Shown piece by piece: positions 30,550 to 40,503 of a stretch of DNA of 64,000 nucleotides (position 1 is its first letter; the number at the start of each line of letters is the position of its first letter). Made by a program: the position numbers and the translations under genes. Location of the stretch: positions 186,001 through 250,000 of the forward strand of contig NZ_SMSE01000002.1 in the NCBI RefSeq assembly GCF_004354085.1, given 5' to 3'. The notes under the pieces are model-generated. The model was not told the DNA's origin. It saw only the letters and a program-made list of their open reading frames with translations, and did no database searches. Source of the DNA: Seongchinamella unica. GTDB lineage: Bacteria; Pseudomonadota; Gammaproteobacteria; Pseudomonadales; Halieaceae.

Positions 30550-31386
30550 TCAGCGCCGGGTTTTGCCCAGGTTACGCTTGATTTCCCGCAGGTGTTCGCT
30601 GAATTCCTCTGGCTGCCGCAGTGCCAGGCAGGTCGCGATGATGTCGACGATAACCAGCTGGGCGATGCGGGATGTCATCGGGGTGTAGAGATCGGTGTCC
30701 TCGCCGGTCTCCACGCCCAGCACCAGCGAGCAACTCCGGGCCAGGGGAGAGTCTGGTGAGGTGATGCCCACCACAGGACAATGCCGTTCGCGGGCCAGTT
30801 CAGCCAGCTCGATAATGTCCTTGGTGCGCCCGGTGTAGGAAATGCAGATTAACAGGTCGTCGGGGGAGAGACCGACCGCCAGCATTCGCTGGTTGATGAT
30901 GTCCGTGTGGGCCATAACCGGTATGGGGAAGCGCAGCAGCTTGTGTTGGGCATCCAGCGCCACCGAGGCGGAGGCTCCGAGCCCGCAAAAGGTCACTGAG
31001 CGGGCATTTCCCATCGCCTCTACCACATCCTGCAGGGCACCCAGGTCAAGATGGTCCTGGGTATTGCAGAGACTGGCATGGGTACTTTCGAATATCTTTG
31101 CCACCACTTTACCGGCGGAGTCGTCCGGATCGATGTTGTGTGTGATGCGCGGCTGTTTGCGGGCCAGTTCCGCCGCCAGCGCCAGTTTGAAATCCGGAAA
31201 TCCCTTGTATCCCAGGCCGGTGCAAAATCGATTCACCGTGGGTTCGCTGACCCCGGTCTTGGCCGCGAGTGAGGCCGTGGTGGTGGAGAGGATGGCTTCC
31301 GGGTCTGCTACTACACAGGCGGCGATCTTTTGCGCCGATTTGCTGCGCTTGCTTCGTGGGTCTGCGAGGTCGGAGAGTATTGTCAT
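30550..31386 (-). CDS. hexR: HexR, RpiR-family regulator of central carbon metabolism
   Basis: 278 residues. The N-terminal HTH_6 domain (SAQKIAACVVADPEAILSTT, SLAAKTGVSEPTVNRFCTGL) is followed by a SIS sugar-phosphate-binding domain (VTFCGLGASASVALDAQHK, LICISYTGRTKDIIELAELA). HexR senses 2-keto-3-deoxy-6-phosphogluconate and controls Entner-Doudoroff and glycolytic genes. It is divergent from eda and the gap genes, with two HexR-like sites in the 232-base spacer, so it is likely both their regulator and self-regulated. Confidence 0.92.
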   Translation of the reverse strand: MTILSDLADPRSKRSKSAQKIAACVVADPEAILSTTTASLAAKTGVSEPTVNRFCTGLGYKGFPDFKLALAAELARKQPRITHNIDPDDSAGKVVAKIFESTHASLCNTQDHLDLGALQDVVEAMGNARSVTFCGLGASASVALDAQHKLLRFPIPVMAHTDIINQRMLAVGLSPDDLLICISYTGRTKDIIELAELARERHCPVVGITSPDSPLARSCSLVLGVETGEDTDLYTPMTSRIAQLVIVDIIATCLALRQPEEFSEHLREIKRNLGKTRR

Positions 31387-31414: not shown

Positions 31415-31429
31415 TGTAATAAAAATACT
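31415..31429. promoter_or_regulatory. candidate HexR operator, hexR-proximal
   Basis: TGTAATAAAAATACT resembles the HexR consensus TGTARTwwwATTACA, with mismatches in the right half-site. It lies 29 bases upstream of the hexR start codon, where it could mediate autoregulation. Confidence 0.5.
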
Positions 31430-31591: not shown

Positions 31592-31606
31592 TGTAATAAA
31601 ATTTCA
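31592..31606. promoter_or_regulatory. candidate HexR operator, eda-proximal
   Basis: TGTAATAAAATTTCA is a near-palindrome matching the HexR consensus at all but one half-site base (T for A at position 13). It ends two bases before the eda ribosome site (TAAGG at 31608-31612), so bound protein would sit within or just before the start of the message. Confidence 0.6.
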
Positions 31607-31618
31607 TTAAGGCGCGCC

Positions 31619-32230
31619 ATGCGAGACCATAATCTAGCCGAATTCAGAGTGCTCCCGGTGGTAACCGCCAGGGACGCAGCCTCTACCGTCGCCCTGTCAC
31701 GGGCGCTGCTGGCCGGCGGGATGAGGGCGATAGAGATCACTTTGCGTACCGACGCCGCTCTGGACGCTATCGCCGCAGTGCGACAGGAGGTGCCGGAAAT
31801 GCTGGTGGCCGCCGGCACCGTCACCAACCCGACGGAACTGGAGCAGGTTGTCGCGGCCGGGGTCTCGCTTGCCCTCAGCCCCGGAGGTACCGACCAGCTG
31901 CTGGCTGCCGCTGCCGAGGCGCCGCTGCAGTTTATACCCGGGGTGGCCACTGCATCTGACGTCATGCGGGCGATGGACTATGGTATGTCGGTGTGCAAGC
32001 TGTTTCCCGCCACGGTGGTGGGTGGTGAGGCCATGCTCAAGGCGCTGGGGGGTCCTTTCCCGAACATGAAATTCTGTCCCACTGGCGGCCTTGGGCCGAA
32101 CAATTTTCGCGACTTTCTGGCGCTTCCCAATGTGGTCTGTTGCGGTGGATCATGGATGGTGGCCGCCGACCTGGTCGACAATGGCCGCTGGAATGAAATC
32201 GAACGACTGGCCCGCGAGGCCATGAGCTAA
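31619..32230 (+). CDS. eda: KDPG aldolase (2-dehydro-3-deoxy-phosphogluconate aldolase)
   Basis: 203 residues from ATG 31619, with TAAGG six bases before. It splits KDPG into pyruvate and glyceraldehyde-3-phosphate, the last Entner-Doudoroff step. Family features are RVLPVV, GGMRAIEITLRT (catalytic Glu), AAGTVTNPTELEQ, FIPGVATASDV, the Schiff-base lysine in VCKLFPA, and CPTGGLGPNNF. It is the first gene of a tight plus-strand operon with the GAPDH-like gene, gap and ppc, so its glyceraldehyde-3-phosphate product feeds the next enzyme. Expression is probably repressed by HexR. Confidence 0.95.
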   Translation: MRDHNLAEFRVLPVVTARDAASTVALSRALLAGGMRAIEITLRTDAALDAIAAVRQEVPEMLVAAGTVTNPTELEQVVAAGVSLALSPGGTDQLLAAAAEAPLQFIPGVATASDVMRAMDYGMSVCKLFPATVVGGEAMLKALGGPFPNMKFCPTGGLGPNNFRDFLALPNVVCCGGSWMVAADLVDNGRWNEIERLAREAMS

Positions 32231-32256: not shown

Positions 32257-33279
32257 ATGACTCAGCGAGGCCCCATCAAGGTGGGTATTATGGGATTCGG
32301 CCAGACCGGTAGGCAGATATTTGAGCTTGCCTCTCACAGCGACGATGTTGAAGTGGTGGCCATTGCCGATATCGGCAAACCGGAAATTCTCCACTACCTG
32401 CTCTGTTCCGAGGTTGAGCAGCCGGGGCGTCATCGCCTGGAGGGTAATTTCCTGGTCAACGAAAGCTGTCGTGCCCGGCTAATGGAAATCGATCGACCTG
32501 CGGAGATGCCCTGGGACATTTTTGGCGTCGACGTCGTTATCGATTCCACCGGTAAATACCGTGACCGTGAGCGTATGGAGGATCATCTGGCGAACGGTGC
32601 GCCGCGGGTGCTGCTGCGCACACTGCCCACCGATCATATAGACCGGATTATCATTCCCGGAATCAATGAGTATAGCGCCAGTGCAGACGATCGGATGATC
32701 TCTGCCGGTTCGGCCACCACCAGCGCCCTGGCTTTGCTGCTGCACAGCCTGGCGGGCAGCTTCAAGATTGAGTGTGGCAGCATGACGACTATTCACGCGT
32801 TTACCTCGGACCAGGCGCTGCAGGACTATGCCGGGTCAGATTTTCGTCGCAGCCGTTCCGCCGCCAAGAACATCATTCCCAACAGCCATGAGGCCAGCCT
32901 CTGGTTAGGCAACATCCTGCCTGAGTTCGACGGCAAGATCCTCACTTACGCGCTCAACGTGCCGGTGCAGGAAGGCTGTCTGCTGGACGTCAACCTGGTC
33001 ATGGCTGACAGCTCGGTCGACGCGGAGTCGGTGAACGAGGCCATGCGTGCCGCAGCGGCCGGCAGCCCCGGAATCATCGGTGTGGTCGAGGACCCGATTG
33101 TCTCGTCCGACGTGATTGGCAGCCCGCTGTCGCTACTGTTTGATACCAAGGGCACGATCAAGGCCGGCAGCAACACCATTAAAACCCTCAGCTGGTATGA
33201 AAACCTGGGTCACGCGGCACGCCTGCTGGACGTGGTGAGGCTCTACAGCAAGCTGGATCAGCAACAGGAGGCCGCGTAA
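32257..33279 (+). CDS. GAPDH-like protein lacking the catalytic cysteine (predicted pseudoenzyme)
   Basis: 340 residues from ATG 32257 (GAGGAG seven bases upstream). The overall fold is GAPDH: Rossmann motif MGFGQTGRQ, STGKYRDRE, TTIHAFTSDQ with the general-base His (about 180) kept, and FRRSRSAAKNIIP. The active-site SNASCTTNC of the neighbouring gap reads SAGSATTSA here, so the nucleophilic Cys is Ala (about 153) and the following Asn is Ser. The phosphate-site TSTGAAK becomes NSHEASL, the Arg of RVPVP becomes Asn (NVPVQ), and NEWGYS becomes NLGHAA. Oxidative phosphorylation of glyceraldehyde-3-phosphate therefore looks impossible, while NAD binding may survive. Its stop overlaps the gap start by one base. 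A regulatory or structural partner of Gap is my inference. Confidence 0.85.
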   Translation: MTQRGPIKVGIMGFGQTGRQIFELASHSDDVEVVAIADIGKPEILHYLLCSEVEQPGRHRLEGNFLVNESCRARLMEIDRPAEMPWDIFGVDVVIDSTGKYRDRERMEDHLANGAPRVLLRTLPTDHIDRIIIPGINEYSASADDRMISAGSATTSALALLLHSLAGSFKIECGSMTTIHAFTSDQALQDYAGSDFRRSRSAAKNIIPNSHEASLWLGNILPEFDGKILTYALNVPVQEGCLLDVNLVMADSSVDAESVNEAMRAAAAGSPGIIGVVEDPIVSSDVIGSPLSLLFDTKGTIKAGSNTIKTLSWYENLGHAARLLDVVRLYSKLDQQQEAA

Positions 33280-34277
33280 TGAGAGTCGGTATCAATGGTT
33301 TTGGTCGCATAGGCCGCTCGGTCTTTCGGATTCTCGAAAACGTGGAAGGTGTGGATGTCGTAGCCATCAATGACCTGTTCGATAACGACGCCCTGCGCTA
33401 CCTGCTTAGCTACGATACGGTGATGGGCCCCTTCGGCAAGAACCTGAAACTCGAGGATGATCACTTCGTGACGGACAAGGGTCGGGTAAAGCTGACCAAC
33501 GAGCGCAACCCGGCTGATATTCCCTGGGGAGACCTGGGCGTCGATGTGGTCGTGGAAGCTACGGGTGTGTTCCGCGCCAGAGAGCAACTGATGCAGCACC
33601 TGCAGGCCGGGGCAGGGCGCGTGGTGCTGACCGTGCCGTCCAAGGACCCGGTGGATTACACCGTGGTGCTGGGTGTCAACGATGATGGGCTGAATAAAGA
33701 GCACCGCATTATTTCCAATGCCAGTTGCACCACCAACTGCCTTGCGCCCATGGCGAAAGTGCTCAATGATGCCTTTGGTATCGAGGAAGGGGTCATCAAC
33801 ACGGTGCACGCCTATACCAACGACCAGCGGCTTGCCGATGTGCCGCACTCGGACTGGCGCCGCAGTCGCGCTGCCGCCGAGAACATCATTCCAACCTCTA
33901 CCGGTGCTGCCAAGGCGGTGGGGGAAGTGCTGCCCCAGCTGCAGGGCAAGTTGCACGGAATCGCGGCGCGGGTGCCTGTGCCCGACGGCTCTGTGGTTGA
34001 CCTGTTCGTCAAACTGGGCAAGCGGGTAACCGTCGACGATGTCAATGCGGTGGTGCGCGAAGCCTCCGAATCCGAGCGGCTCATGGGTATTCTGCAGTAC
34101 AGTGATGTGCCCGTGGTTTCCTCCGATATCATCGGCAATTCCCACTCCTCAATCTACGACGCGGGTTTTAGCGGGGTCACTGCGGATCGCTATCTGCGGG
34201 TGCTGAACTGGTACGACAACGAATGGGGCTATTCCTCCAGGGTTTGCGATCTGCTGGGGAGAATCGACGCCTGGTGA
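33279..34277 (+). CDS. gap: glyceraldehyde-3-phosphate dehydrogenase, type I
   Basis: 332 residues with every catalytic element: NAD loop [28 protein letters not shown] with Cys150, TVHAYTNDQ with His177, [19 protein letters not shown] and RVPVP with Arg231, then [12 protein letters not shown] near the end. It oxidises glyceraldehyde-3-phosphate to 1,3-bisphosphoglycerate. Asp32 in INDLFD suggests NAD preference. ATG 33279 overlaps the stop of the cysteine-less paralogue (TAATG), and CAGGAG precedes it. Its own stop overlaps the ppc start, so three proteins are translationally coupled. Confidence 0.95.
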
Positions 34278-36913
34278 CCACTTCTGGACCACAACCTGAT
34301 TACAGCTCGCTGCGCAGCAATGTCAGCGAGCTCGGGCGCATCCTGGGCGACACCATGGCCAGCGCCGAGGGTGATGACTTCCTCGAATTGATCGAACGGA
34401 TTCGCGGTTTGTCCAAGGGCGCCCGTGAAGGTTCCGGGCAGGACCAGGCACAGCTGCTTGAGCAGCTGCGTGCGCTGGATAACGACCAGCTGGTGCCGGT
34501 GGCGAGGGCGTTCGCCCAGTTCCTGAACCTCGCTAACATTGCCGAGCAGCATCACCTGGTTTCCCGGGAAATGGACCCATTATTGTCCGCCTCCCGGAAT
34601 CTCAGTAACAGCCTGGGGGAATTGCGGAAAGAGGGCGTAGCGATTGCCGACATCGAGCAGGCAATCTCCGCCCTCAAAATCGAACTGGTGCTTACCGCCC
34701 ATCCCACCGAAATCACCCGGCGCACCCTGATTCACAAACACAGTGAGATCGGGGAGTGCCTCGCCCGCCTGGAACTGGGCGGCCTGACATCGCGGGAGCA
34801 ATCCCAGTTGCAGTTGCGGCTGCGGGAACTGGTGGCGCAAATCTGGTACGGCGATGATTTTCGCCGAGAGCGTCCCACCCCGGTGGACGAGGCCAAGTGG
34901 GGGTTCGCGGTGGTAGAGGAGTCCCTGTGGCGCGCTGTTCCGGAATTTCTGCGACGCCTGGACGAAGCCCTGGAGCAGCACTGCGGCCTGGCTTTGCCCC
35001 TGGAGGCGGCTCCGGTCAGCTTTGTTTCCTGGATGGGCGGTGACCGTGACGGCAATCCCAATGTCACTGCCGAGGTGACTCGAGAAGTGATGCTGCTTTC
35101 ACGCTGGCAGGCGGCAGAACTGTACCTGGGAGATGTCACCCAGTTGCTGGAAGAGCTCTCCATGACTCGCTGCAGCGATGATTTGCGCCAGCTAGCGGGC
35201 GATGCCCACGAACCTTACCGGGCCATCCTGCGCCAGCTGCGCAGTTTATTGCGCGACACTCTCGCCAGTATCGAGGCGCAATTGCGCGGCGAGCCCGCCC
35301 TGGAACTGGAAACCCTGCAGTGCCAGGAGCAACTGTGGCAGCCTCTGCTGGCCTGCTACCACTCGCTGATGGACTGCGGCATGGATATTATCGCCCGCCG
35401 TACCCTGCTGGATGTGTTGCGCCGGGTGCGCTGTTTTGGCGTTCACCTGGTGCGCCACGACATTCGCCAGGACAGTGCCCGCCATACGGAGGCGCTGTCC
35501 GAGATTACCCGTTGCCTGGGCCTGGGCGATTACGCCGACTGGGACGAGGATACGCGACGCGCCTTTCTGCTGCGCGAGCTGGGCAATACCCGGCCGCTGG
35601 TGCCGCGACACTGGCAGCCCTCCGCCGATGTCCGGGAAGTGCTGGACACTTGTGCGGTGGCCGCAGAACAATCTCCGGAGGCCCTGGGAGCTTACGTCAT
35701 ATCCATGGCGAGACAGGCCTCCGACGTCCTGGCCGTGCATTTGCTGCTGCAGGAAGCCGGGGTGCAGAAACCGATACCCGTGGCCCCGCTGTTCGAGACC
35801 CTGGACGATTTGTCCAGGGCCCGCGAGGTGATTGGGGATCTGCTCGAGAACCACTGGTACCGGGGCCAGACCGGCGGCAGACTGATGGTGATGATTGGCT
35901 ATTCCGACTCCGCCAAGGATGCCGGGGTGATGGCCGCCTCCTGGGCCCAGTACCGGGCTCAGGAAGAGTTGCTGGAGGTCTGTAAGCATCACGAGGTAGA
36001 ACTGACCCTGTTTCACGGTCGCGGCGGCACCATTGGCCGTGGCGGCGCGCCTGCACACCAAGCGCTGTTATCGCAACCGCCCGGGTCGCTGAAAAATGGC
36101 CTGCGGGTAACAGAACAGGGAGAGATGATCCGCACCAAGTTGGGCTGGACCTCGCTGGCGGTCAAAACCCTGGCGCTCTATACGGTGGCGATCTGCCAGG
36201 CCAACCTGCGCACCCCACCTGCGCCGCGCAAGGAATGGCGGGAAGTCATGGAAGAGCTGTCCGTCGAGTCCTGTAAAGCCTATCGGGCGGTGGTCCGCGA
36301 GGAACCGGATTTTGTGCCCTATTTTCGCCATGCGACGCCGGAACAGGAGTTGGCCAAGTTGCCCCTGGGTTCCCGTCCAGCACGGCGCAAGGCCGGTGGC
36401 GGCATAGAGAGCCTGCGGGCGATACCGTGGATTTTTGCCTGGTCGCAGAATCGCCTCATGCTGCCGGCGTGGCTGGGGGCGGGAGCGGCCCTTGCCAGTG
36501 CCTGCAGCAATGGCAGGGCAGCGCTTATCGGCGAAATGGCGGCCAGCTGGCCGTTCTTTGCCACCCGCTTATCCATGCTGGAGATGGTGTATGCGAAGGC
36601 GGACGTGGAGCTGTCAGCCTATTACGATCAAACGCTGGTGCCCGAGGAGTTGAGTTTTATTGGTGAGAGGCTGCGTCAGCAGCTGCAGGCGGACATGGCC
36701 ACGGTGCTGGAAATTGACGGTAGCGACCAGTTGCTGGCAAACCAGCCCTGGACGGCGGAATCCATCCGACTCCGGAATATTTACACCGACCCCCTGAACT
36801 TTCTGCAGGCGGAATTGCTCAAACGCAACAGGCAGCAGGAAGAGCCGCGGCTGGAGCGCGCCATCATGGTAACCATTGCTGGTATCGCCGCGGGAATGCG
36901 TAACACCGGCTGA
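34274..36913 (+). CDS. ppc: phosphoenolpyruvate carboxylase
   Basis: 879 residues from GTG 34274, which overlaps the gap stop as GTGA. It adds bicarbonate to PEP to give oxaloacetate, refilling the TCA cycle. Signature motifs are [15 protein letters not shown] (catalytic His), [37 protein letters not shown] and [15 protein letters not shown], with [20 protein letters not shown] and a final RNTG C terminus, as in active enzymes. A longer upstream frame inside gap is rejected. Coupling to gap and eda ties anaplerosis to Entner-Doudoroff flux. Confidence 0.95.
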
Positions 36914-37586: not shown

Positions 37587-37623
37587 CCCGGCCGCAGCCT
37601 TAACTGCCGCCGGGATTTTTTTT
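37587..37623 (+). terminator. intrinsic terminator of the SYLF gene
   Basis: CCCGGC-C-GCAG at 37587-37597 pairs with CTGC-C-GCCGGG at 37604-37614 (one internal C-C mismatch, 6-base loop), followed by ATTTTTTTT at 37615-37623. The hairpin overlaps the last codons and stop of the converging lutC gene. Confidence 0.8.
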
Positions 37624-38319
37624 GCTGGAGAGAACGTCCAAGGCGGTATCCAGTTGCTCCTGGCGAACCTCGCCGGTCAGGATGACATGCCAGGCCCTGG
37701 GTCCGTGAGCACCACAGACGAGCTGCGCCTCGATATCCGCGGTGCTGGATGGTCCGGCAATACAGAACAGGGCCCGGGGTCGCTCGGCTCCGGTGATTGC
37801 CGGCTCAAGCTGTTGCCAGAGTGATTCCAGGTCCGGCAGCAACTGGTTCACATCGAGAACCACCAGGTGGTGTTCAGGCAGCAGGTTGTTGCGAGCGGGG
37901 TTATTTCTGCCGCTGAGGAATATCGTGGCCCCGGTTTCTGCCACGCCCCACTGGGCATAACTGAGCGCGACGGGCTCGCCCGGTTCAATCTCGCCAAAGC
38001 GCGGCAGCACGCCGCCATCGCGCCAGGGCATGGCGGCGAGATGGGGGTCGTTACCCGCCACCAGCCGGTGACTGCGGTAGTGCCGGTAGATGTACTGGCC
38101 CACTGCCTTTACTACATCGACCCGCTGGGGGGCGACATCGATGCTGCCCTGGTTGCGCAGGACATTGATCATGAAGGCGACACAGGTGTCATCGTGGGGC
38201 AGTTCCGCCGCCGGGGCGACGCCAAAGTCATCCAGTTGTGCCTCGATGGCGGCAGCATTCTGCCCGAGGCTGGCGTGGCGCACCCGGGCCATGATCCGGG
38301 ACCGGCTCTCACTACTCAC
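37600..38319 (-). CDS. lutC: lactate utilization protein LutC (LUD domain)
   Basis: 239 residues from GTG 38319, inside the last codons of lutB (8-base overlap), with GGAGG nine bases upstream. The LUD/DUF162 domain shows VGQYIYRHYRSHRLVAGND, YAQWGVAETGATIF, LLPEHHLVVLDVNQLL and CIAGPSSTADIEAQLVCGAHGPR. LutABC together oxidise L-lactate to pyruvate and replace flavin-type lactate dehydrogenases. The final residues NPGGS are encoded within the terminator hairpin of the converging SYLF gene. Confidence 0.9.
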   Translation of the reverse strand: MSSESRSRIMARVRHASLGQNAAAIEAQLDDFGVAPAAELPHDDTCVAFMINVLRNQGSIDVAPQRVDVVKAVGQYIYRHYRSHRLVAGNDPHLAAMPWRDGGVLPRFGEIEPGEPVALSYAQWGVAETGATIFLSGRNNPARNNLLPEHHLVVLDVNQLLPDLESLWQQLEPAITGAERPRALFCIAGPSSTADIEAQLVCGAHGPRAWHVILTGEVRQEQLDTALDVLSSKKNPGGS

Positions 38320-39730
38320 GATCGTCCCTCCGGGCCTTGTACTGCTGCATGAAACTCTCACCCTGGGGGCTGGGGAAATCCCGTTGATCGGTCCAGCCCG
38401 AGGCGAAAGGGAGCTTGTGGAAGCTGCCTTTCCTGCGTCCCAGTTTATTCAATATCGACATGACTCTGGTGGTCAGGAACTGGTATAGGCCGGGCCTGGC
38501 CGCCACCCAGGCGTGCAGGCGTAATCCCATCCGCCAGCGCGGCGAACCGATGTTTTCCTGGCTTTGCTGGTGCCTCAGGTCGCGCAGCAGATCGGGCAGG
38601 GGGATATCTGCGGGGCAGACTTCTGCGCAGCGGCCGCAGCTGGTGCAGGCATTGGGCAGGGCTGCTGTGTCCTCGAGCGAGTTGAGCAGCGGCGTGAGCA
38701 CAGAGCCCATCGGCCCCGGATATACCCAGCCGTAGCTATGGCCTCCGCTGGCGGTGAAGATCGGGCAGTGATTCAGGCAGGCACCGCAGCGGATACATTG
38801 CAGCATCTCACGGTAGTCGCTGGCGAGAATATCGCTGCGCTGATTGTCCAGCAGCACAATATGCGTTTCCAGCGGGCCATCAAGCTCGGTTTCCCGGCGG
38901 GGGCCCGAATAAAAACTGGTGTAACAGGTTTGCGGTTGTCCTGTCGCGGAGCGCACCAGCAGCCGTTGTACGGCGGTCGCATCCTCCCCTCGTGGCAGTA
39001 TCCGATCCAGGGTGGTGCAGATGATCAACACCCGGGGCAGGTTGGCACAGAGGTCGCCGTTACCCTCATTGGTCACCAGCATGGAATAACCGGTTTCGGC
39101 AATCAGGGCGTTGGCGCCAATGATGCCAATGTCCGCTTGCAGGAAGTGGTCGCGCAGAACTGATCTGGCCTCGCCAACCAGGTCGCTGATGGATTCCAGC
39201 TCGCGTTCGCCCAGGGCATGCTTTTCCAGGAACAGTTCCCGTACCTGCTCTTTGGATTTGTGCAACGCCGGGCCGACAATGTGACTGGGTGTTTCTCCCG
39301 CCTGCTGGATGATGTATTCGCCCAGGTCGGTTTCGATCACCTCGAGGCCACCGCGTTTCAGGTAGTCGTTGAGGCCGGTTTCCTCGGTGACCATGGATTT
39401 TCCCTTGGCCACCTTACGGGCGTCGTGCTGCTGGCAGATGTCGAGGACAATCGAGTTGAGTTCAGAGGCAGAATCCGCGTAATGGACCTGGTTGCCGTTG
39501 TTGGTGGCCTCCAGTTCAAAGCGCGCCAGGTAGTAATCCAGGTTGTCCAGGCTATGCCGGCGAATGCGTTTAACATGCTGCCGCAGGGCTTCGAAATCAC
39601 CGAACTGTTGTACCGCAGCCTCGCGCACAACCGGGGTAAACAGGGCCATCGCGTCACGTTGTGCCGCCGCCGCTTCGTCCGCCAGCGCAGCTACCGCTTT
39701 ACGGGTGAAATGTTGGCTTTGCAATTCCAC
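38312..39730 (-). CDS. lutB: lactate utilization iron-sulfur protein LutB
   Basis: 472 residues starting at GTG 39730, with GGAGAG upstream and a 5-base gap after lutA. The N-terminal two thirds form a LUD domain (DYYLARFELEATNNGNQVHYA, MVTEETGLNDYLKRGGLEVIETDLGEY in parts). Two ferredoxin-type clusters follow in CIRCGACLNHCP and CTSCGRCAEVCP. A C-terminal LutB-type extension includes FHKLPFASGWTDQRDFP. It passes electrons within the LutABC lactate oxidase complex. Confidence 0.92.
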   Translation of the reverse strand: MELQSQHFTRKAVAALADEAAAAQRDAMALFTPVVREAAVQQFGDFEALRQHVKRIRRHSLDNLDYYLARFELEATNNGNQVHYADSASELNSIVLDICQQHDARKVAKGKSMVTEETGLNDYLKRGGLEVIETDLGEYIIQQAGETPSHIVGPALHKSKEQVRELFLEKHALGERELESISDLVGEARSVLRDHFLQADIGIIGANALIAETGYSMLVTNEGNGDLCANLPRVLIICTTLDRILPRGEDATAVQRLLVRSATGQPQTCYTSFYSGPRRETELDGPLETHIVLLDNQRSDILASDYREMLQCIRCGACLNHCPIFTASGGHSYGWVYPGPMGSVLTPLLNSLEDTAALPNACTSCGRCAEVCPADIPLPDLLRDLRHQQSQENIGSPRWRMGLRLHAWVAARPGLYQFLTTRVMSILNKLGRRKGSFHKLPFASGWTDQRDFPSPQGESFMQQYKARRDDRE

Positions 39731-39735
39731 CGGAA

Positions 39736-40503
39736 CTACTCTCCCTCGCCGATAGCGGGGGAATAAAGTTCGCCAGCCAGGATTTCCGCGACATGCCGGA
39801 CTTCAATATCGATGCCCTGGCGGCGGGCACGGCCGGCGATGCTCAGCAGGCAGCCGAGATCGCCGCCGGCGAGCATGGCGGCACCGGTAGCGGTGGCGTT
39901 GCGCAGTTTGTCGTCGGTCATTTTCGCGGAAATTTCCGGCATCTTGGCGCAGAATGTGCCGCCAAAACCGCAGCAGACCTCAGTTTGTTGCATCTCCCTG
40001 ACTTCGACCTGGCACAGTTTGCGCAGTAGTTCCCGGGGTTGTTCCCTGATGCCCAGCTCGCGCAGGCCGGCACAACTGTCGTGGTAGGTGATGGTCGGTA
40101 GTTCGGTCATCACCGCAGGGGCTTTGTCCAGTTGGACGACGTCAGAGAGGAAACTGGTCAGCTCATAGGTTTTTTGTGCCAGCGCCAGGGCCCGTTGCCG
40201 CCACTCCCCGTCCAGTAATTTCGGGTAGTGCTCGCAGACCATGCCGGCGCAGGAGCCGGAGGGTGCGACCACGTACTGCGCGTCTTCGAACTGCTCGATA
40301 AACTGTTTGGCGAGCACGGAGGCGGATGCGTATTCACCCGCGTTGTAGCTCGGCTGGCCGCAGCAGGTTTGCCGTTGCGGTACATCGACGATACAACCGG
40401 CCTGCTCCAGCAGGCGGATGCTGGCGAAAGCGACGGAGGGACGCATGAGGTCGGCAAGGCAGGTGACGAATAGGGATACGCGCGGGGCGCTGGAGTCGCT
40501 CAT
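39736..40503 (-). CDS. lutA: lactate utilization protein LutA (CCG-domain subunit)
   Basis: 255 residues with two cysteine-rich CCG domains: QRQTCCGQPSYNAGE and EVCCGFGGTFCAKMPEIS, each preceded by its partner motif (SLFVTCLADLM, YHDSCAGLRELGI). Such domains hold a [4Fe-4S]-type centre in LutA, GlcF and heterodisulfide reductases. It leads the minus-strand lutABC operon. Lactate permease or a LutR-type regulator gene is not adjacent. Confidence 0.92.
   Translation of the reverse strand: MSDSSAPRVSLFVTCLADLMRPSVAFASIRLLEQAGCIVDVPQRQTCCGQPSYNAGEYASASVLAKQFIEQFEDAQYVVAPSGSCAGMVCEHYPKLLDGEWRQRALALAQKTYELTSFLSDVVQLDKAPAVMTELPTITYHDSCAGLRELGIREQPRELLRKLCQVEVREMQQTEVCCGFGGTFCAKMPEISAKMTDDKLRNATATGAAMLAGGDLGCLLSIAGRARRQGIDIEVRHVAEILAGELYSPAIGEGE

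Follow-up and report, generated by a model that had tools for sequence, protein, structure and literature searches.

The window analysed here, a stretch of 64,000 nucleotides from Seongchinamella unica, carries directly upstream of an ordinary gap gene a paralog, called PAR below, that has the fold of glyceraldehyde-3-phosphate dehydrogenase (GAPDH) but lacks its catalytic cysteine. We propose, with a probability of about 60%, that PAR is a non-catalytic pseudo-subunit of a hetero-oligomeric GAPDH, which it would form with its own Gap. The proposal is built on five observations made in sequence: loss of the nucleophile, conservation of the paralog among relatives, purifying selection, reciprocal pairing with one Gap clade, and overlap of the two genes. 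The frames and coordinates that an earlier note on this DNA had given for the tandem GAPDH-fold genes proved correct and are listed in Table 1 with the surrounding features.

Table 1. Features of the PAR-gap region, in window coordinates.
Feature	Position	Strand	Remarks
hexR regulator	30550..31386	-	divergent; above NF008451 cut-off
HexR-like palindrome	31415..31429	+	2 mismatches against consensus
HexR-like palindrome	31592..31606	+	1 mismatch against consensus
eda, KDPG aldolase (start codon uncertain)	31619..32230	+	upstream of PAR
PAR, cysteine-less GAPDH paralog (340 aa)	32257..33279, stop included	+	ORF, Pfam, TIGR01534, AF2
Ala153 codon, catalytic Cys position	32713..32715	+	Cys in 0/96 PAR, 0/8 PAR2
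His180 codon (catalytic His176)	32794..32796	+	kept in 96/96 PAR, 8/8 PAR2
Asn209 codon (Thr in Gap)	32881..32883	+	Asn in 96/96 PAR, 8/8 PAR2
Asn234 codon (substrate-binding Arg231 in Gap)	32956..32958	+	Asn in 96/96 PAR, 8/8 PAR2
His319 codon (Tyr317 in Gap)	33211..33213	+	His in 96/96 PAR; in PAR2 Tyr 4, Phe 2, Ile 2
AGGAGG, likely ribosome-binding site of gap, within final PAR codons	33266..33271	+	read from sequence
gap, partner gene for a canonical type I GAPDH (332 aa)	33279..34277	+	catalytic residues present
ppc, PEP carboxylase (start codon uncertain)	34265..36913	+	downstream of gap

PAR and Gap both matched the Pfam domains Gp_dh_N and Gp_dh_C above the gathering scores, and a Pfam search found no extra domain in PAR. 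On the type I GAPDH model TIGR01534 (cut-off 367.2 bits), Gap scored 424.0 bits and PAR 243.6, below the cut-off; PAR likewise did not reach the cut-off of the erythrose-4-phosphate dehydrogenase model TIGR01532 (169.1 bits against 530.55). The AF2 model of the PAR monomer has the full GAPDH fold (pLDDT 91, pTM 0.90), and the PDB relative closest to PAR by both sequence and fold is an ordinary GAPDH (7jwk; Foldseek TM 0.86–0.87). Judged from these models, PAR appears to be a member of the GAPDH superfamily by fold and not a type I GAPDH equivalog. The S-loop blocks of the monomer model had pLDDT values of 51–68, as might be expected if the loop is ordered by a neighboring subunit. The S-loop sits at the core of the GAPDH tetramer, and 15 of the 55 invariant PAR residues fall within its 27 positions, where 4.4 would be expected; the same loop is also highly conserved in Gap, so that its conservation is not specific to PAR. 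The GAPDH C domain occurs in four genes of the genome, namely PAR, Gap, an epd-like gene and a PRK08289-type gene. The epd-like gene, which adjoins transketolase and PGK-like genes, scored 510.8 bits on TIGR01532 (cut-off 530.55) and 368.8 on TIGR01534, and the PRK08289-type gene scored 787.2 against a cut-off of 431 and 375.3 on TIGR01534. Since both of these Cys-bearing genes pass the TIGR01534 cut-off of 367.2, Gap may not be the only GAPDH of the cell.

To compare PAR across genomes, we fetched a first set of 83 loci from the family and the order, giving 83 PARs (that of the window included, the split PAR of locus L122 excluded) against 81 Gaps; a scan of public contigs, from which the best 80 of 167 relatives were taken, added 13 PARs for a total of 96. 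The joint alignment held 96 PARs, 8 members of a sister family (PAR2, described below), 94 Gaps, 7 Gap2 partners of PAR2 and 36 other GAPDHs, and the residue counts exclude L122, whose PAR pieces are shorter than 250 aa, and short Gap fragments. In the window, PAR reads SAGSATTSA at the nucleophile motif where Gap reads SNASCTTNC, NSHE in place of the TSTG of Gap, NVPVQ where Gap reads RVPVP, and NLGHAA where Gap reads NEWGYS, and it retains His180, equivalent to His176, and the GxGxxG motif. These are the active-site changes reported in the earlier note, in the cysteine, the phosphate loop, the arginine of RVPVP and NEWGYS, and our reading confirmed them along with the retention of His176 and the Rossmann loop. 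Across the 96 PARs the nucleophile column holds Ala in 72, Pro in 18, Gly in 4 and Ser in 2, and never Cys, whereas all 94 partner Gaps have Cys there. No conserved Cys that might act as a substitute nucleophile was found in the PARs beside the lost one; a Cys six residues downstream of the column is present in about half of them and absent from the PAR of the window. Phosphate-loop Thr208 is retained in just 3 of 96 PARs, Gly209 is outside the four commonest residues of its column, and most PARs have NSHE-like letters there (His in 71/96, Glu in 71/96). The invariant Asn209 occupies the column of the Thr that, in Gap, stands two residues ahead of the phosphate-loop Thr, and the Glu of NEWGY is deleted in 95 of the 96 PARs. 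Asp32 is retained in all 96. Among residues that we assign to the NAD site, Asn6 has become Met in 94 PARs and Asn31 has become Ala in 85, and Asn313 is kept in 45 of 96, changes that weigh against the subunit proposal. Because the loss of the cysteine, Asn234 and His319 recur in all 96 PARs, the observation made in the window exceeds chance.

Codon-based comparisons show that PAR is being retained under purifying selection and is not decaying. In the 11 closest pairs, dN/dS of PAR was 0.024–0.103 in ten and 0.205 in one, compared with 0.02–0.18 for Gap. The next four of the 15 listed pairs gave PAR values of 0.30–0.48, with dS near 0.6 and dN of 0.18–0.28, and when all 3160 pairs were filtered for dS below 1.5, the 896 that passed had a median of 0.25 for PAR and 0.15 for Gap, with a PAR maximum of 0.66; we attribute the four values of 0.30–0.48 and the maximum to saturation of dS. 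A single PAR frame of at least 250 aa was present in 83 of 84 first-set loci and in the 13 added ones. At the remaining locus, L122 in genome G042, PAR is split into two overlapping frames beside an intact gap, reflecting either a sequencing error or a rare loss. That split is what can be said for the view that PAR is a decaying duplicate or an assembly artefact, and we regard this view as refuted by the intact frames, the low dN/dS of the closest pairs and the invariant signature residues. The claim that PAR has a selected non-catalytic role is, at the level of sequence, strongly supported by the same low dN/dS values and by the signature residues invariant in 96 of 96 PARs. As evidence that would count against it, the earlier note had named a substitute nucleophile and homologs that are rare, frameshifted or evolving without constraint; our sequence searches turned up none of these other than the split at L122 (1 of 84).

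The pocket of PAR has been rebuilt and not simply lost, with invariant Asn209, Asn234 and His319 standing beside His180, and such a pocket could serve either in sensing a ligand or in new chemistry. PAR might accordingly be an enzyme that carries out a different, non-redox reaction in a Cys-free pocket made of His180, His319, Asn209, Asn234, Ser152 and Lys309, for example by repairing or isomerizing a triose or a damaged product or cofactor of Gap, which would explain why the two proteins are produced together. The replacement of pocket residues by others that do not vary (Asn209, Asn234 and His319 in 96/96 PARs, with Lys309 present in 83/83) and the purifying selection on PAR are what an enzyme of this kind would lead one to expect. 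However, the nucleophile position itself drifts among Ala, Pro, Gly and Ser, His319 is not kept in PAR2, and an independent enzyme would not need strict pairing with one clade of Gap, so we consider new chemistry of this kind unlikely.

The pairing of PAR with one Gap clade was reciprocal at both taxonomic levels surveyed. Among 390 genomes of the order, PAR was found in 32 (E<=1e-65) and a Gap of at least 63% identity in exactly those 32; the next-best Gaps, 53–57% identical, occurred in five genomes, all of them without a PAR match. Among 140 genomes of the family, PAR was found in 66, counting G042 with its split frame, and the partner Gap (at least 74% identity) in 65 of these and in no other genome; in the 66th PAR genome, G119 (L089), a contig end leaves just a fragment of Gap, the Gap match is partial in two of the 65 (G048 and G049), and the Gap of one genome without PAR, G122, is 55% identical and stands in a different setting. 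Up to five candidates per genome were scored in the order and phylum scans, and single absences are soft since genomes without a match may be incomplete. Gap adjoins PAR in 95 of 96 loci, the exception (L070) being cut by a contig end. One draft genome, G031 (contigs C16 and C318), contains two adjacent PAR-Gap pairs, which reflects either a duplication that took in both genes or a mixed assembly.

The genes themselves are tightly joined. In the window the PAR stop codon and the gap start codon have one base in common (TAATG), and across 79 pairs the spacing between the two codons was -1 (46 pairs), -4 (23 pairs), 0 (4 pairs) or 1 to 15 (6 pairs), so that in 73 of them the genes overlap or directly adjoin. 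Of 80 loci, 76 have a Shine-Dalgarno-like core no more than 20 nt from the gap start. Positions 33260–33279 of the window encode the common C-terminal tail of PAR, which ends in EAA, and the same bases contain the likely ribosome-binding site of gap; conservation of EAA may thus be set by the DNA and not by the protein. A scan of the operon for promoters and terminators stayed near the level of shuffled sequence (5 versus 2.1 and 7 versus 5.2, respectively).

On visual comparison the subtrees of PAR and Gap are similar, and the PAR and Gap distances over 80 loci are strongly correlated (Mantel r 0.91, with 0 of 2000 permutations as high). When five neighbors were controlled one at a time, the partial r between PAR and Gap ranged from 0.46 to 0.91, being 0.65–0.91 given PPC, SylF, EEP or LutC (41, 26, 10 and 20 loci). 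With HexR controlled (18 loci), the PAR-Gap partial r of 0.46 was lower than that of PAR and HexR given Gap (0.51). We therefore rejected correlation relative to neighbors as proof of contact between PAR and Gap, the signal being modest and unspecific with respect to HexR.

GAPDH is well known for moonlighting, and PAR could in principle be a free-standing sensor of NAD(H) or triose phosphate that reports the flux through Gap to other targets, such as DNA or enzymes. Its Rossmann glycines, retained in 83 of 83 PARs, and its constant Asp32 fit a sensor of this kind. Against it are the lack of any extra domain in the Pfam search, the position of Gap as the sole constant neighbor among those tested, and the pairing with a single Gap clade, and we find a free-standing role rather improbable.

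We favor the pseudo-subunit reading, in which the overlapping genes would keep the production of PAR matched to that of its own Gap, and the two proteins would assemble as a hetero-oligomer, a mixed tetramer being the likeliest form. Within the complex, PAR, which we infer from its residues to be inactive, may stabilize, activate or regulate Gap, and its rebuilt pocket (His180, His319, Asn209, Asn234 and Ser152) probably binds NAD(H) and/or a phosphorylated ligand. A stronger version is that the hetero-oligomer is obligate, Gap being unable to work properly or to be controlled without a dead twin that senses a metabolite; we hold this version tentatively, at somewhat less than even odds. Of the roles suggested previously, mixed tetramers with Gap emerged as the best-supported mechanism, through reciprocal co-occurrence, gene overlap and similar subtrees, with contact between the proteins being the inferred part. 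Co-occurrence and overlap would also fit two proteins of one pathway. An AF2 model of a fused PAR-Gap chain, made from a four-row alignment, reached pLDDT 44 and pTM 0.36, values too low to bear on contact; a larger alignment for the fused chain was set aside since it aligned rows of PAR to the Gap half.

The gene neighborhoods bear on a more specific role, in which PAR would be a flux-control subunit serving specifically the Entner-Doudoroff pathway in a HexR-controlled operon. The earlier note put this forward, and in its favor the window has hexR and eda next to PAR and two HexR-like boxes upstream of eda. The boxes, between hexR and eda, are the only sites with three or fewer mismatches in the 64 kb, in a scan that used one form of the consensus and found as many matches in 4 of 100 shuffled sequences. 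One study gives a different form of the HexR site, TTGT-N7-8-ACAA, and describes repression of gap-1 by HexR in Pseudomonas (PMC5489143). HexR control of the operon in the window is plausible from its sequence, as a local matter. Among the 96 PAR loci, Gap was a neighbor in 95, against 48 for ppc, 29 for eda and 18 for hexR, and no tested gene other than Gap exceeded 48; these counts are lower bounds, some loci being cut by contig ends. Flanking genes of the distant loci were mutually unrelated (20 proteins at 13 of 18 gene-listed loci, including one PFK, at L210), and 5 of the 20 flanking proteins had no match. We found edd in 89 of the 140 family genomes, distributed independently of PAR: 42 genomes had both genes, 24 had PAR only, 47 had edd only and 27 had neither (odds ratio 1.0, Fisher P 1.0). 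Given this independence and the variable neighbors, an Entner-Doudoroff role is not supported; as a general role the flux-control subunit had to be given up, and we regard a dedicated one as very improbable. Farther downstream in the window, beyond ppc and a SylF-like gene, lies a three-gene cluster (37600–40503) that we take, from labels assigned by eye, to be LutC/LutB/LutA-like, and its first gene is present in 32 of the 96 PAR loci of relatives.

PAR is also found outside the order. Eight contigs of metagenome-assembled genomes (MAGs) labelled deltaproteobacterial (L208 and L210–L216) encode PARs 57–61% identical to that of the window with gap immediately downstream, and one of these MAGs is named Syntrophobacter (Thermodesulfobacteriota in NCBI). 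In the tree, four deltaproteobacterial-labelled rows and two rows of one family of the order (f9) group together in the PAR half and again in the Gap half, which suggests that the pair may have been transferred horizontally as a unit between lineages. Among 148 genomes of the phylum of one such MAG, a close PAR was found only in the genome of that MAG, and a search at E 1e-65 of 398 genomes sampled from the phylum to which the window belongs found PAR only in the window's genome. A tblastn search of plasmids at E 1e-70 gave no PAR match.

Of 12 genomes from a single order, 8 carried the sister family PAR2 (L291/L295, which are both G976:C75:14701-16709, and L296–L302). All eight PAR2 proteins have Ser at the nucleophile position, and their genes precede gap with spacings of -4 (four loci), 2 (two loci), 4 and 14. 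In common with PAR they have Asn at the Arg231 position, Asn before the phosphate loop, Ala at the second Cys (Cys153) and further residues, and one of them (P0003) scored 298.4 bits on TIGR01534, below the cut-off of 367.2. PAR and PAR2 joined in the tree with SH-aLRT support of 100, compared with only 89 for Gap and Gap2, in an analysis that flags long branches meeting where the PAR side joins the Gap side and excludes the Gap of L298, which is split in two frames. The simplest history would be one ancient duplication that produced a dead twin, kept together with its Gap, after which both diverged.

GAPDH is ordinarily a homotetramer and serves as a reference enzyme for central metabolism. 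Dead paralogs that act as activators, and a hetero-oligomeric GAPDH in plastids, are already known; if our reading is true, a non-catalytic GAPDH twin would be a new way of controlling glycolysis or gluconeogenesis. Under the stronger, obligate version, the homotetramer would have been replaced in about half of the sampled genomes of the Halieaceae family, in part of the genomes from seven other families of the order and in a deltaproteobacterial lineage, with PAR2 elsewhere. PAR and PAR2, with different residues at the dead nucleophile, could provide a natural test case for how dead paralogs become obligate subunits. There is also a consequence for annotation, since PAR matches GAPDH domains and could readily be miscalled as GAPDH, which this analysis would correct. 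In the literature searched, which for the most part did not include subscription papers and preprints, we found no description of a Gap-paired GAPDH that lacks the cysteine, and the main text of a pseudoenzyme review mentions neither GAPDH nor glyceraldehyde (PMC10211241).

Comparison with known systems places PAR among several partial likenesses. It resembles type I GAPDH (TIGR01534, PF00044 + PF02800) in its fold, Rossmann glycine motif, Asp32, His176 and S-loop, but differs in having no catalytic Cys, Asn in place of Arg231, a rebuilt phosphate loop and, in 95 of 96 proteins, no Glu in the NEWGY motif. Erythrose-4-phosphate dehydrogenase (TIGR01532) is, like PAR, a paralog of GAPDH, but has kept the Cys. 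Plant GapA and GapB are both catalytic, and GapB carries a redox tail, whereas PAR is without the Cys and the tail of the PAR in the window is without a redox extension. The plastid enzyme (A2B2) is a hetero-oligomeric GAPDH formed by these two paralogs (PMC11025378). Trypanosomatids have a deoxyhypusine synthase that forms a heterotetramer with a dead paralog and gains 3000-fold in activity (PMC3663545), and prozymes, including that of AdoMetDC, in which a dead paralog stands beside a live partner (PMC5201418). PAR would be a paralog of this prozyme type, being dead by its residues, under purifying selection and kept with a live partner; the trypanosomatid cases are from other enzyme families and from eukaryotes, with complexes that were demonstrated, whereas the PAR-Gap complex is a proposed one and the PAR and gap genes overlap. 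A bacterial precedent is HisZ, which descends from a tRNA synthetase and not from the family of its own partner. In the HisZ-HisGS ATP phosphoribosyltransferase (PMC9734150, PMC10795190), a regulatory subunit activates a catalytic one, much as we propose for PAR and Gap, with the difference that PAR comes from the same family as the enzyme it would serve.
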